Source of the DNA: a virus
IMG/VR virus record: IMGVR_UViG_3300042937_000590
Location: 1 to 40,497 of that record
Length of the DNA: 40,497 bases
Strand: one strand, 5' to 3'
The position numbers were made by a program, and so were the translations under genes. How positions within the stretch are numbered: the first letter of the stretch is position 1; each line of letters starts with the position of its first letter. The notes below the pieces were generated by a model that had not been told where the DNA came from, did not search any database, and saw only the letters and a list, made by a program, of their open reading frames with translations. Shown here one piece after another: positions 16,294 through 29,055 of this stretch.

Positions 16294-17075
16294 GAGTGAA
16301 CCAAGCGGGGCGCGGCCTCATTGCCGAGTTTGAGGGGCAACGGCTGACCGCCTATCGCTGTCCAGCGGGCGTGTGGACCATCGGCATCGGCTCTACCCAA
16401 CCGCCGGTCACTCCGGGCATGCAGATCACAGTCGATCAAATGTGGGAGCGGTTTGACCACGACATCGCGATATTCGAGACGGGCGTGCTGGCGGCATTGG
16501 CCGGGGCGCCGACGACACAGAACCAGTTTAACGCGATGGTCTCTCTGGCCTACAATATCGGCCTTGGCGGCTTCCGCACGTCCTCTGTGTTGAGGGCGCA
16601 CAAGGCGGGCAACACGTCCGCCGCTGCCAATGCCTTCGGTCTATGGAACAAGGCGACCGTTGACGGCAAGCTGGTGGAAATGCCAGGCCTGACTCGCCGC
16701 AGGGCCGCTGAAACGGCTCTCTACCTCACGCCGGACGCCGTGGGCCATGTCGAGCGCGCGTGGGCCATGCCGCAGGCGGTCGCCAAGCCGGCCGGCGCGA
16801 GCTCGTCCAAGGCGGTGCTTACGAATGTCGGTGTCGGCGCTGGCGCGGCCACCCTGGCGATCTCCAACCTGCAGCCCGCCATTGAGGCAGTTAACAGCGC
16901 CGTAGAGGCCGCCAAATCTGCCCAAGGTACGTGGGCAAGCCTTCGGGACCTACTATCGCCCCTGTCCAACGGACACGTCTATACGGCCCTGATAGCGGCC
17001 GGAATAACGCTTGCGGCAGTCTACCTGATCCGGCGGGTATTTCGGCGCGTGAAGTCGGGGGAGATCACGCCATGA
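16290..17075 (+). CDS. GH24 (T4/P21-type) endolysin with C-terminal membrane segment
   Basis: Protein of 261 residues. The GH24 muramidase signature is complete: E15, C24 and T30 fit the E-8aa-D/C-5aa-T catalytic spacing, and TIGIGST follows. It cleaves the glycan strand of peptidoglycan. The lysozyme domain covers about residues 1-160. Unlike standard phage lysozymes (about 145-180 aa) it continues into an Ala/Ser-rich linker and a hydrophobic segment at about 230-247 followed by RRVFRRVK, so it should be C-terminally anchored in the inner membrane. That anchoring could replace or modify the holin step. No N-terminal signal-anchor is visible. Confidence 0.85.
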   Translation: MRVNQAGRGLIAEFEGQRLTAYRCPAGVWTIGIGSTQPPVTPGMQITVDQMWERFDHDIAIFETGVLAALAGAPTTQNQFNAMVSLAYNIGLGGFRTSSVLRAHKAGNTSAAANAFGLWNKATVDGKLVEMPGLTRRRAAETALYLTPDAVGHVERAWAMPQAVAKPAGASSSKAVLTNVGVGAGAATLAISNLQPAIEAVNSAVEAAKSAQGTWASLRDLLSPLSNGHVYTALIAAGITLAAVYLIRRVFRRVKSGEITP

Positions 17076-26087: not shown

Positions 26088-26287
26088 ACCGCCCCGCCGA
26101 CATTCTTCGCGCTGAGGCGGTTCGCCTCTTGGAAGCCGAGAAGGCCGCTCCAGGCACACCCGCCGGCAAGCGCTGGTTCACGCGCAAGCAACTGTTCGAG
26201 CGTGCCGAGCATCTTGGCTTCGACGCCAGAACGGAAGCCAGCGCCCGCGTGGACGAGGCTTTGACACAAGCGGGGACGACGCCATGA
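26084..26287 (+). CDS. Hypothetical early protein
   Basis: Protein of 67 residues with ATGA overlaps at both ends. Helical: RPADILRAEAVRLLEAEKAA, then GKRWFTRKQLFERAEHLGFD. No family recognised. It may have a small winged-helix-like segment. Confidence 0.6.
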   Translation: MNRPADILRAEAVRLLEAEKAAPGTPAGKRWFTRKQLFERAEHLGFDARTEASARVDEALTQAGTTP

Positions 26288-26814
26288 CCATCGGACACAA
26301 CACAGGCGATAACCGCCTGAAGTCATTAGCCGACCGCATCGAACGCCTGATGGACGAGCGCGACGGCATCCAGTCGGATATTCGCGACATCTACACGGAA
26401 GCCAAGAGCGCCGGCTATGTCCCGAAGGTCCTCCGGAAGGCCATCACGCGCAAGCGCATGGACCCGGACAAGCGGAGCGAAGAGGACATGATACTAGACT
26501 TGTACGAGGACGCGCTGAGCCCTTCCATGCGCCGCGCGGTTGCGATGGCGAAGTCTGGCGCGACCTCGCGCGAGATTGAGACGGAAACCGGGATCGACCA
26601 TGCCACGGTCGCGCGGTCCGTCTCACTAAATAAAAAATCTGAGACAGAGATTGCGGCCCCGCAGGGTTTGTCCTTGCCCACGGCACCGCAGGCAGTTGGC
26701 GTTGCCGCGCCAACTACCGCGCCAGCCTCGCGAAATGGCGGGGTAGAGGTTGGCAATTATTCCGACGACGACATGCCAGACCAGCCCGCATTCCTGCGGA
26801 GGGGTGCAGCATGA
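26284..26814 (+). CDS. GapR-family (DUF2312) protein with C-terminal HTH extension
   Basis: Protein of 176 residues. Residues 9-77 match the GapR/DUF2312 pattern of alphaproteobacteria: NRLKSLADRIERLMDERDGI, QSDIRDIYTEAKSAGYVPKV, LRKAITRKRMDPDKRSEED. Caulobacter GapR (about 90 aa) binds overtwisted DNA ahead of forks and stimulates topoisomerases. Here the domain is followed by a helix-turn-helix-like segment at about 86-113 (VAMAKSGATSREIETETGID, HATVARS) and a low-complexity tail. The phage protein might help its own replication or interfere with the host GapR; both are inference. Placed in the replication operon. Confidence 0.82.
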   Translation: MTIGHNTGDNRLKSLADRIERLMDERDGIQSDIRDIYTEAKSAGYVPKVLRKAITRKRMDPDKRSEEDMILDLYEDALSPSMRRAVAMAKSGATSREIETETGIDHATVARSVSLNKKSETEIAAPQGLSLPTAPQAVGVAAPTTAPASRNGGVEVGNYSDDDMPDQPAFLRRGAA

Positions 26815-27508: not shown

Positions 27509-27921
27509 GAATCACGAACGGACAACTCGCCGCCGTGTACGGCCTCCGATTGATCGGCGTCCCGCTGACGGACTGCTGCAAGATCGCTGGGACGCCGTAC
27601 AAGAGGACCATCGAGTACCTGCCGCTGGAGTGGCGCGATAAGGTCCGTCCGCGCCCCACATGGACCTACGAGCGCCTGTGCGCCATGCGCCGCGACTACA
27701 TCAATCCGCACCTGCAGACGTGGCAGGTTGCCATCCGGCACCACACCACGCGCGACACTGTCCGGAAGCTTGCCCAGCGCGAAGGCTGGCCGCCCAAGAA
27801 GATCGGCCGGCCGAAGGGCAGGGGTAAGCGGAAGATCGTCGCCAAGCTCATCAACCGGGGGATGAGCCGGGAGCAGGCGCTCTACACGACCTTGGAAGCT
27901 GCACTGGAGGCCAGAGTATGA
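27505..27921 (+). CDS. Hypothetical basic DNA-binding-like protein
   Basis: Protein of 138 residues, ATGA overlap at both ends. Two possible helix-turn-helix regions: near the N-terminus (GQLAAVYGLRLIGVPLTDCC) and at about 80-95 (TTRDTVRKLAQREGWPPKKI). A Lys/Arg/Gly-rich stretch follows. Probably a regulator or replication accessory protein; no family recognised. Confidence 0.6.
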   Translation: MRITNGQLAAVYGLRLIGVPLTDCCKIAGTPYKRTIEYLPLEWRDKVRPRPTWTYERLCAMRRDYINPHLQTWQVAIRHHTTRDTVRKLAQREGWPPKKIGRPKGRGKRKIVAKLINRGMSREQALYTTLEAALEARV

Positions 27922-28640
27922 GTGTCCGCGCTCTTTCTTGGTCCTTCGCCTTGCCGCTGCAGGACATGGCCGCCAAGGGCGTCCTGCACGCGCTGGCGGA
28001 CCATGCGGACGAGGATTTGAAGTGCTGGCCGTCGCTGGCCCGCATCGCCCTGTTCGTAGGGTGTAGCGAGAACACCGCGCGCCGTGCCCTGCAAAGGGTC
28101 GAAGCGATGGGGATCATCAGCCGGGAAACGCGGCCAGGTCAAAGCGACATGTACCGGCTCAATGCAGACTTTGACCCCTCCCAAATTGACACCCCTACCA
28201 AATCGGCACCCCTCCCAACGAAGACGCCACCCCTCCCACGGTGGGACCCCACCCCTCCCAAATTGGTAGGGGACCCCTCCCACGGTGGGACCCGAACCGT
28301 CAATGAACCATCAAAGAACCGTCAACTAACCGTCAGGGGCGACGCCAATGCAAAACCACACCGACTCCCAGCGGACTGGCAGCCCTCGCAGGATTGCCGA
28401 GAGTTTGCCTCCGATCTCGGACTTGATGCGGACGCAACCGCCGAGGCATTCATCGACTATTGGACCGGAAAAGGCGCGGGCACAAAGCGAACAGACTGGG
28501 CTCGCACTTGGAGAGTCTGGTGCCGCCGAGAGACCGCTCGGCCGATGGGTAAAGGATCAGTTGGGCGGCTTCAATCTACCCGAGGCAACGATGCGTTCTA
28601 TCAGCAGCTCGCTGACATCGCACGTCGCGCCGACGACTAG
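27918..28640 (+). CDS. Replication initiator-like protein (lambda O type layout)
   Basis: Protein of 240 residues. Winged helix-turn-helix at about 15-80 (MAAKGVLHALADHADEDLKC, SLARIALFVGCSENTARRAL, QRVEAMGIISRE), as in phage replication initiators. A Pro/Thr-rich linker at 86-140 is encoded by the iteron block 28174-28337. The C-terminal domain (WQPSQDCREFASDLGLDADA, FIDYWTGKG, WARTWRVWCRR) resembles the end of phage replisome organisers. Having origin repeats within the initiator gene is the lambda O arrangement. It would bind the iterons and recruit the helicase loader. The stop lies inside the next gene's start region. Confidence 0.78.
   Translation: MSVRALSWSFALPLQDMAAKGVLHALADHADEDLKCWPSLARIALFVGCSENTARRALQRVEAMGIISRETRPGQSDMYRLNADFDPSQIDTPTKSAPLPTKTPPLPRWDPTPPKLVGDPSHGGTRTVNEPSKNRQLTVRGDANAKPHRLPADWQPSQDCREFASDLGLDADATAEAFIDYWTGKGAGTKRTDWARTWRVWCRRETARPMGKGSVGRLQSTRGNDAFYQQLADIARRADD
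28174..28337 (+). repeat. Candidate replication origin: two sets of iterons inside the initiator gene
   Basis: Set 1: six direct copies of ACCCCTCCCA (one is ACCCCTACCA), starting at 28174, 28191, 28208, 28229, 28251 and 28273, spaced 17, 17, 21, 22 and 22 bp. Between them lie two copies of the palindrome TCCCACGGTGGGA (28234-28246, 28278-28290) and one inverted iteron TTGGTAGGGG (28263-28272). Set 2: four 11-bp direct repeats of RAACCRTCAA type starting at 28294, 28305, 28316 and 28327 in an AT-richer stretch. The order iterons, then AT-rich repeats is typical of lambdoid origins. Confidence 0.75.
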
Positions 28641-29055
28641 CAGCGTTTGGGGCGGTGATGGGCAATTCACCGGCACAAAGCTGGGTCCGTTCGGACTGCG
28701 CAAGGGGTGGAAGCGCGCCGACCTGCTGCAGGATCTGGCGCTATTGCGTGGCATGTGCCGGGGCGGCAAGCGGGCTGAAATTGCCCACGAAGTCGCCAAG
28801 CTGATGGTGCGCACGAAGTCACGCGCTCACGGCGACGGCGAGGCCCGCTTGATGGCTGAAACCATGGTGCAGGACTTGAGCGCCTATCCCATCGATGTTG
28901 TCCGGTTTGCCTGCGAATACTGGGTGGACGGCGGCGCTGATGCGAAGTTCACGCCCTCGTGGCCGGAACTCAAGGAAATTTGTGAGAAGCGCATGGATGG
29001 CCGTCGCAGGCTCGTCCGCTGCCTGGAGCATCACCTTGCGGAGCAGCCGCAATGA
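28591..29055 (+). CDS. Putative replication accessory protein (helicase-loader position)
   Basis: Protein of 154 residues. ATG 28591 (GAGG upstream) gives a 50-base overlap with the initiator gene. The body has GWKRADLLQDLALLRGMCRG, AEIAHEVAKLMVRTKSRAHG and a C-terminal helical part (SWPELKEICEKRMDGRRRLV). By position after the initiator it parallels lambda P, the helicase loader, but there is no motif that proves this. No Walker A is present. Confidence 0.6.
   Translation: MRSISSSLTSHVAPTTSSVWGGDGQFTGTKLGPFGLRKGWKRADLLQDLALLRGMCRGGKRAEIAHEVAKLMVRTKSRAHGDGEARLMAETMVQDLSAYPIDVVRFACEYWVDGGADAKFTPSWPELKEICEKRMDGRRRLVRCLEHHLAEQPQ

Follow-up and report, generated by a model that had tools for sequence, protein, structure and literature searches.

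A putative lambda-like replication origin inside an HTH_36 initiator gene, and a layout that recurs across the HTH_36 initiator family

Results and discussion

The DNA that encodes the linker of a replication initiator in a virus record of 40.5 kb (hereafter the window, meaning the whole stretch of DNA that was analyzed) very probably doubles as a phage replication origin, in which iterons would be bound by the winged helix of the initiator, an adjacent ladder of 11-bp repeats would be opened, and a DnaT-like domain would aid loading of DnaB. The best reading of our sequence comparisons is a lambda-like in-gene origin that is read by a non-lambda initiator family, in which the layout appears to be shared and the specificity code to be readable in part.

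The initiator gene and its repeats

The initiator exceeds the curated HTH_36 cut-off (25 bits), which places it among HTH_36-type phage initiators (PF13730; PHROG 1032/391/270). Most of its length matches PHROG families named replication initiation, with phrog_1032 covering residues 1–210 (E 3e-26), and it carries an in-gene iteron array, which we propose here as a feature of membership (representative L003, p = 0.005). The score of its C-terminal DnaT-like domain is barely above the cut-off (Table 1). A profile search for PF04492 (Phage_rep_O) found no match in the window initiator, with lambda O itself scoring 123 bits; the window initiator is outside the lambda O protein family. The AlphaFold2 model (mean pLDDT 62.7), for which seven sequences were aligned, is weak for the whole protein and usable in its two domains only. 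It contains a winged helix, a helix at residues 51–64 that is the predicted recognition helix, a linker at residues 91–146 with pLDDT <50, and a helical C-terminal domain. Fold searches with the initiator domain pointed to MarR/ArsR-like winged helices. Foldseek comparison of the model with the PDB gave zero matches at E ≤1e-3, and searching solved structures by sequence gave a best match of only E 0.08.

Table 1 Features of the initiator gene and its repeat array, in window coordinates.
Feature	Position	Strand	Basis
Initiator gene, 240 aa (HTH_36 + linker + DnaT-like domain)	27918..28640	+	ORF and domain profiles
HTH_36 (PF13730) winged-helix domain, residues 18–67	27969..28118	+	E 5.8e-13, 48.9 bits vs cut-off 25
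Predicted recognition helix, residues 51–64, with N52-T53-A54-R55 signature	28068..28109	+	AlphaFold2 model, alignment columns
Iteron 1 ACCCCTCCCA	28174..28183	+	pattern search
Iteron 2 ACCCCTACCA	28191..28200	+	pattern search
Iteron 3 ACCCCTCCCA	28208..28217	+	pattern search
Iteron 4 ACCCCTCCCA	28229..28238	+	pattern search
Palindrome TCCCACGGTGGGA, overlaps iteron 4	28234..28246	.	read from sequence
Iteron 5 ACCCCTCCCA	28251..28260	+	pattern search
Inverted iteron TGGTAGGGGA, within iteron 5 unit	28264..28273	-	sequence and inverted-repeat search
Iteron 6 ACCCCTCCCA	28273..28282	+	pattern search
Palindrome TCCCACGGTGGGA, overlaps iteron 6	28278..28290	.	read from sequence
GAACC ladder, four 11-bp units; proposed unwinding element	28294..28337	+	sequence, repeat search
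DnaT-like domain (PF17948), residues 149–208; proposed helicase-loading part	28362..28541	+	E 1.5e-6, 28.3 bits vs cut-off 25

A preliminary description of this DNA had reported an initiator gene with six ACCCCT(C/A)CCA iterons, two palindromes, an inverted iteron and four 11-bp repeats. The PF13730 and PF17948 matches and the PHROG annotation bear out the initiator, and each repeat lies where it had been placed. Iterons and ladder together occupy DNA coding for the initiator linker, which is disordered and Pro-rich. The claim that the repeats encode only a Pro/Thr linker is correct under the iterons, to which the Pro/Thr-rich peptide is confined, but not under the 11-bp units, which encode RTVNEPSKNRQLTVR. 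The iterons follow the consensus ACCCCT(C/A)CCA at start-to-start spacings of 17, 17, 21, 22 and 22 bp, and ACCCCTCCCA, sought on both strands with at most one mismatch, recurs elsewhere in the window only at 16443 and 27474. Both TCCCACGGTGGGA palindromes are perfect. The ladder units (GAACCGTCAAT, GAACCATCAAA, GAACCGTCAAC and TAACCGTCAGG) are of the GAACCRTCA type, begin 21 nt downstream of the iteron 6 start, and have a G+C content, counted by eye, of 21/44.

Several observations concern the surroundings of the array. A protein with a GapR-like DNA-binding domain (PF10073, E 1e-23; 26284–26814) and a VRR-NUC nuclease (PF08774; 26955–27365) that is Holliday-junction-resolvase-like in PHROGs are encoded upstream of the initiator. 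The ORF directly downstream (28645–29055) matched no confident family and no helicase-loader family in domain and PHROG searches; by position it is a candidate helicase loader; alternatively, the initiator may fill that role itself through its DnaT-like domain. The C-terminal tail of the initiator, RGNDAFYQQLADIA (28580–28637), is nearly constant in L008 and L009–L012, whose other parts are strongly divergent, and is kept even beside a different N-terminal domain. This tail may serve to bind a partner, perhaps the helicase. GC skew across the window has no clear switch, and AT skew changes sign near 24–26 kb, close to replication and regulation genes, probably reflecting gene direction.

A layout shared among HTH_36 initiator genes

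We searched viral contigs, host genomes and named phages for HTH_36 genes by similarity at the protein or profile level, and added genes from a DNA pattern scan. The 383 ORFs yielded 147 non-redundant genes in 51 HTH clusters, using a redundancy filter of 50% shared 4-mers and dropping helix-gapped rows and genes with <130 residues from the HTH onward. All but 13 (134/147) came from sources other than the pattern scan, and these 13 are the pattern-derived genes that survived the HMM and redundancy filters. Among the 30 pattern-scan loci, L020, L029, L030, L033, L037 and L039–L041 are likely false positives (TPT-type repeat proteins or other coding contexts) and were left unused. Kinship was controlled by weighting with 50%-identity HTH clusters, which is not a tree or a full phylogenetic correction.

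Repeats were scored by comparing the best 9-mer in the 110 codons after the HTH with synonymous permutations (p ≤0.05), a test that takes genes with at least 50 codons after the HTH. Arrays were detected in 90 of the 134 HTH_36 genes, 34 of these 134 being relatives found with the HTH of the pattern-derived L017 and L018, versus 2 of 143 control ORFs from the same loci. Every source group displays the effect, with rates of 17/36 in host genomes reached via family models alone, 25/31, 14/17 and 20/26 in three viral sets, 8/15 in named phages, and 3/6 and 3/3 in two small sets. We call the repeat test conservative because even the proven case of lambda O does not pass (p = 0.32), and 90/134 is likely a lower bound; some of the 44 genes that fail may truly be without arrays, true absence and a divergent array being inseparable by this test.

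Spacings within the arrays peak at 17 bp (15% vs 3% in the null) and 22 bp (25% vs 4%). On average, spacings of 16–19 bp come before those of 21–25 bp in all 54 genes having both (54/54), an order that recurs in 12/12 HTH clusters (sign test p = 0.0005) and of which the window is an instance. The long (22-bp) units are more palindromic than shuffled sequence in 27 of 32 clusters, and the short (17-bp) units on average are not. Comparison across these genes thus shows an arrangement that appears family-wide among HTH_36 initiators.

The repeated sequence itself varies. CCCCTnCCA was considered as a site for the whole family and rejected, with no cluster of it in any of the 32 loci of the first protein-based set; de novo repeat detection showed lineage-specific iterons instead of a universal one. 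Locus L052, from 1501, departs from the usual 17/22 spacing, as its best repeat (CCAAATCGG) recurs in steps of 9–11 bp, approximately one helical turn.

The GAACC ladder

A ladder was defined as at least three [ATG]AACC steps of 9–13 bp. Ladders were found in 50 of the 134 HTH_36 genes, versus 5.2 expected from synonymous permutation and 0/143 in controls, and where iterons and ladder are both present the distance from the start of the last iteron to the ladder is 19–34 nt in 33/36 genes. The cluster-weighted consensus is GAACCRTCAAn, in which AACC was fixed by the search and the rest was free, with steps mostly of 11–12 bp. Two or three codon frames are used in 50/55 ladders. Their GC content is 46% vs 61.5% for the genes, and lower than that of the gene in 54/55, so that a low-GC tract lies directly downstream of the iterons, as in origins of the lambda type. 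By eye, the ladder is present in Pseudomonas, Arthrobacter and Bifidobacterium phages and takes a looser GAACCAGTCA form in enterobacterial and Vibrio phages; none was seen in the fetched DNA of a Parageobacillus phage or of lambda. Across 299 host genomes, the strict ladder pattern had a single match, of three units, inside the HTH_36 initiator of L052, and a reversed control pattern also had one match, making the L052 ladder evidence of location only.

Because genes that differ in their iterons have the ladder sequence in common, an iteron-reading helix is unlikely to maintain it. Its presence in 20 HTH clusters is what would be expected of a site for a shared partner, and the iterons could then be initiator sites with the ladder acting as a binding site for a host or phage protein (e.g., an accessory protein) rather than as an unwinding element. 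We consider this possible, though somewhat doubtful, given the fixed distance of the ladder from the last iteron (33/36) and its low GC content (54/55), a place and make-up that match the AT-rich tract of lambdoid origins in the passages of PMC7466680 that describe it.

Covariation between helix and iterons

Alignment column 54 corresponds to R55 of the window initiator and lies inside helix 51–64. Repeated CACCC/GGGTG occurs in 85% of units with Q at this column vs 14% of those without (46 cluster-weighted units). The maximum-statistic permutation p-value for this association is 0.0005 across all tested 5-mers, with pattern-derived genes left out. The named phages, in which this rule had initially been spotted by eye, are part of the tested set. 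At least three CACCC copies accompany R at column 51 with Q at column 54 in 35/37 genes, and K at column 51 without Q in 1/33. With R at column 51 and no Q the figure is 19/38; the correspondence is thus not one-to-one. The residues R, L, K and M at the helix column were associated with no significant 5-mer, and I with one (p = 0.03).

A second rule links the helix signature [KN][TQ]xR, which reads N-T-A-R in the window, to CCCCTnCC iterons. They occur in 8/8 units with the signature vs 2/45 without it (n = 53, a unit being an HTH cluster by helix class); the Fisher value of 5e-8 is exploratory, the rule having been formed on the same data, which include genes chosen by that DNA motif. The iteron type of the window is thus found in 10/53 units, 8 of which share its helix signature. 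The code also has failures: L022 and L034 have CCCCTnCC iterons without [KN][TQ]xR, and L080 has such a helix with fewer than three sites. The L013 row was aligned to the more distant HTH of a long ORF, the HTH beside its iterons being SEATARTAV, and was counted as aligned, i.e., without rule and without motif. R alone at the helix column, a simpler predictor, did not reach significance when all 5-mers were considered in the protein-derived genes; only the [KN][TQ]xR rule separated the genes.

The relatives L027 and L409 (75% identical) may be one example of concerted change in helix and iterons, since by eye every iteron changes from ACCCCTACCAAA in L027 to ACCCCTAGCAAA in L409 as the helix changes from NEKTVRQ to SEKIVRR. 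In both, the iteron units are 24 bp long, nearly all in one codon frame, and all altered together between the two relatives, which suggests gene-conversion-like homogenisation.

Helix–iteron covariation indicates that the HTH probably reads the iterons, and it indicates only that; together with the MarR/ArsR-like winged helix found in fold searches, it would also suit repeats that are operators, through which the HTH protein represses or times the replication operon from within its own gene, with the origin elsewhere. We regard such a role as unlikely. The array is mid-gene, ~250 bp downstream of the start, the PHROG neighbors are annotated as replication initiation, and an origin is the better fit to some six sites that stand in order at helical spacing and to a ladder of lower GC content that keeps its distance from them.

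Selection on the DNA of the repeats

When synonymous codons were re-drawn for the same peptide, at most 2 exact iterons arose in 5000 trials, and when the linker’s own codons were permuted the maximum was 5 in 5000 trials, vs 6 observed. The six iterons of the window occupy codon frames 1, 0, 2, 2, 0 and 1, i.e., all three frames, and therefore the peptide is not the repeated thing. Relative to L003, L004 and L006, codons in which the amino acid is kept are unchanged at 106/109 positions in the iteron part vs 135/198 in the HTH part. Relatives that keep the linker peptide and lose the DNA repeats had been named in the preliminary description as one case against an origin. We looked for them and found the opposite: L008, whose protein is 50% identical to that of the window, has a different linker peptide, yet ACCCCTCCC-type repeats and GAACCGTC units at the same place. 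Comparison thus shows the window repeats to be selected as DNA. Tandem putative initiator sites in the initiator gene, selected as DNA, are a mark of lambda-type in-gene origins that the window shares.

L006 and L007 retain the N-terminal domain and the full set of six iterons beside a changed C-terminal part, and L009–L012, which share only the C-terminal part and have another N-terminal part, have no iteron array. In this comparison the iterons follow the HTH rather than the C-terminal domain.

That a Pro/Thr-rich, low-complexity linker spread by codon slippage and left DNA without function is highly improbable, for although the repeats are tandem-like, lie within a disordered linker and keep to a single frame in some relatives (5/90), the window copies use three frames, the 90 arrays use three frames in 59 cases and two in 26 (85/90 in two or three), synonymous sites are frozen, and L008 has the same repeats under a different peptide.

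Comparison with known systems

In-gene origins are best known from lambda. The O proteins of lambda and Stx phages are dimers that bind in-gene iterons, as established by footprinting, and depend for unwinding on a neighboring AT-rich tract, according to passages of PMC7466680; the AT-rich tract lies downstream of the iterons, as in the window. The preliminary description had likened the window to lambda O/ori with different repeats, and the likeness holds, in that the four annotated iterons of lambda (spacing 20, 24 and 23) are also inside O. Lambda O differs in being a PF04492 protein with no HTH_36 match and a different iteron sequence; lambda also has a separate helicase loader, protein P, and its fetched DNA shows, by eye, no GAACC ladder. 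By analogy, the window initiator looks to work like lambda O although it is outside that family. The earlier suggestion of an independent initiator–iteron pair is not quite right, since the pair belongs, as a single specificity class, to an arrangement that spans the HTH_36 initiator family. Overall the earlier reading largely holds and is partly supported, origin activity being something that we infer.

Closer in protein family is the O-like gp56 of Pseudomonas phage MD8, which has an HTH_36 domain and in-gene iterons (spacing 17, 17, 17, 21, 17) followed by GAACC units. It differs from the window in its iteron (CACCCCCGCA), its helix (SKRAVQQAI), and a P-like helicase loader annotated downstream. 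Repeats within this gene were already noted by its authors in the relevant passage of PMC8508860. The Paracoccus plasmids pAES7, pMARC3 and pMOS2 likewise have HTH_36 initiators with iteron-like repeats, but only two direct repeats per predicted oriV in the passages of PMC3832669 that describe them, which do not place the repeats within the gene. Francisella phage KIRK has a putative lambda-like origin inside its replication gene Fhv_0043, which, unlike the window initiator, is listed with a Phg_2220_C domain (both from passages of PMC7924643). Already known are in-gene origins (lambda), repeats in the MD8 gene, the KIRK proposal, and HTH_36 plasmid initiators with iterons. For HTH_36 initiators, a literature search with most subscription journals outside it found no family-wide layout, ladder or helix–iteron code. 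The shared spacing order, the GAACC ladder and the helix–iteron code thus appear to be new here.

To our knowledge, the origin read by TrfA of plasmid RK2 is not an in-gene phage origin. It does offer a precedent and model for the ladder, as its iterons lie beside a repeated element: PMC4081077 describes iterons adjacent to repeated 13-mers in the DUE, which the initiator binds as single strand in a sequence-specific manner. TrfA is unlike the window initiator in being a plasmid initiator with two winged-helix domains (PMC4081077).

Proposed mechanism and implications

We infer binding, unwinding and helicase loading at the window origin as follows. The N-terminal winged helix would bind the ACCCCT(C/A)CCA iterons. 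On the palindromic 22-bp units it would most likely do so as dimers, and its hold on the upstream 17-bp units would be looser and weaker. The resulting nucleoprotein complex would open the lower-GC 11-bp GAACCRTCA ladder, one 21–22-bp step downstream, and the C-terminal DnaT-like domain would help bring in the host DnaB helicase. We propose dimer binding, opening and DnaB loading because of the analogy with the lambda and Stx O proteins.

More broadly, we lean slightly toward the view that HTH_36 phages from widely different hosts share one in-gene origin format with helix-readable iterons and a common unwinding ladder. In such a format, iterons of ~17 bp would be followed by palindromic iterons of ~22 bp and then by a GAACCRTCAAn ladder kept where the iterons differ. 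The code would pair R and Q at columns 51 and 54 with CACCC, and [KN][TQ]xR with CCCCTnCC. The ladder would act as one signal for unwinding throughout, recognized by something that all HTH_36 initiators share. The 11-bp ladder raises the question of what reads it and whether it sets the site of DNA opening.

In-gene origins have so far been described phage by phage, with lambda as the model, and HTH_36 would be a second, wide initiator family with this solution. If this is true, one could read from sequence where many uncharacterised phages have their origin and to which replication-compatibility group they belong, and the exchange of replication modules would be predictable for many temperate phages.
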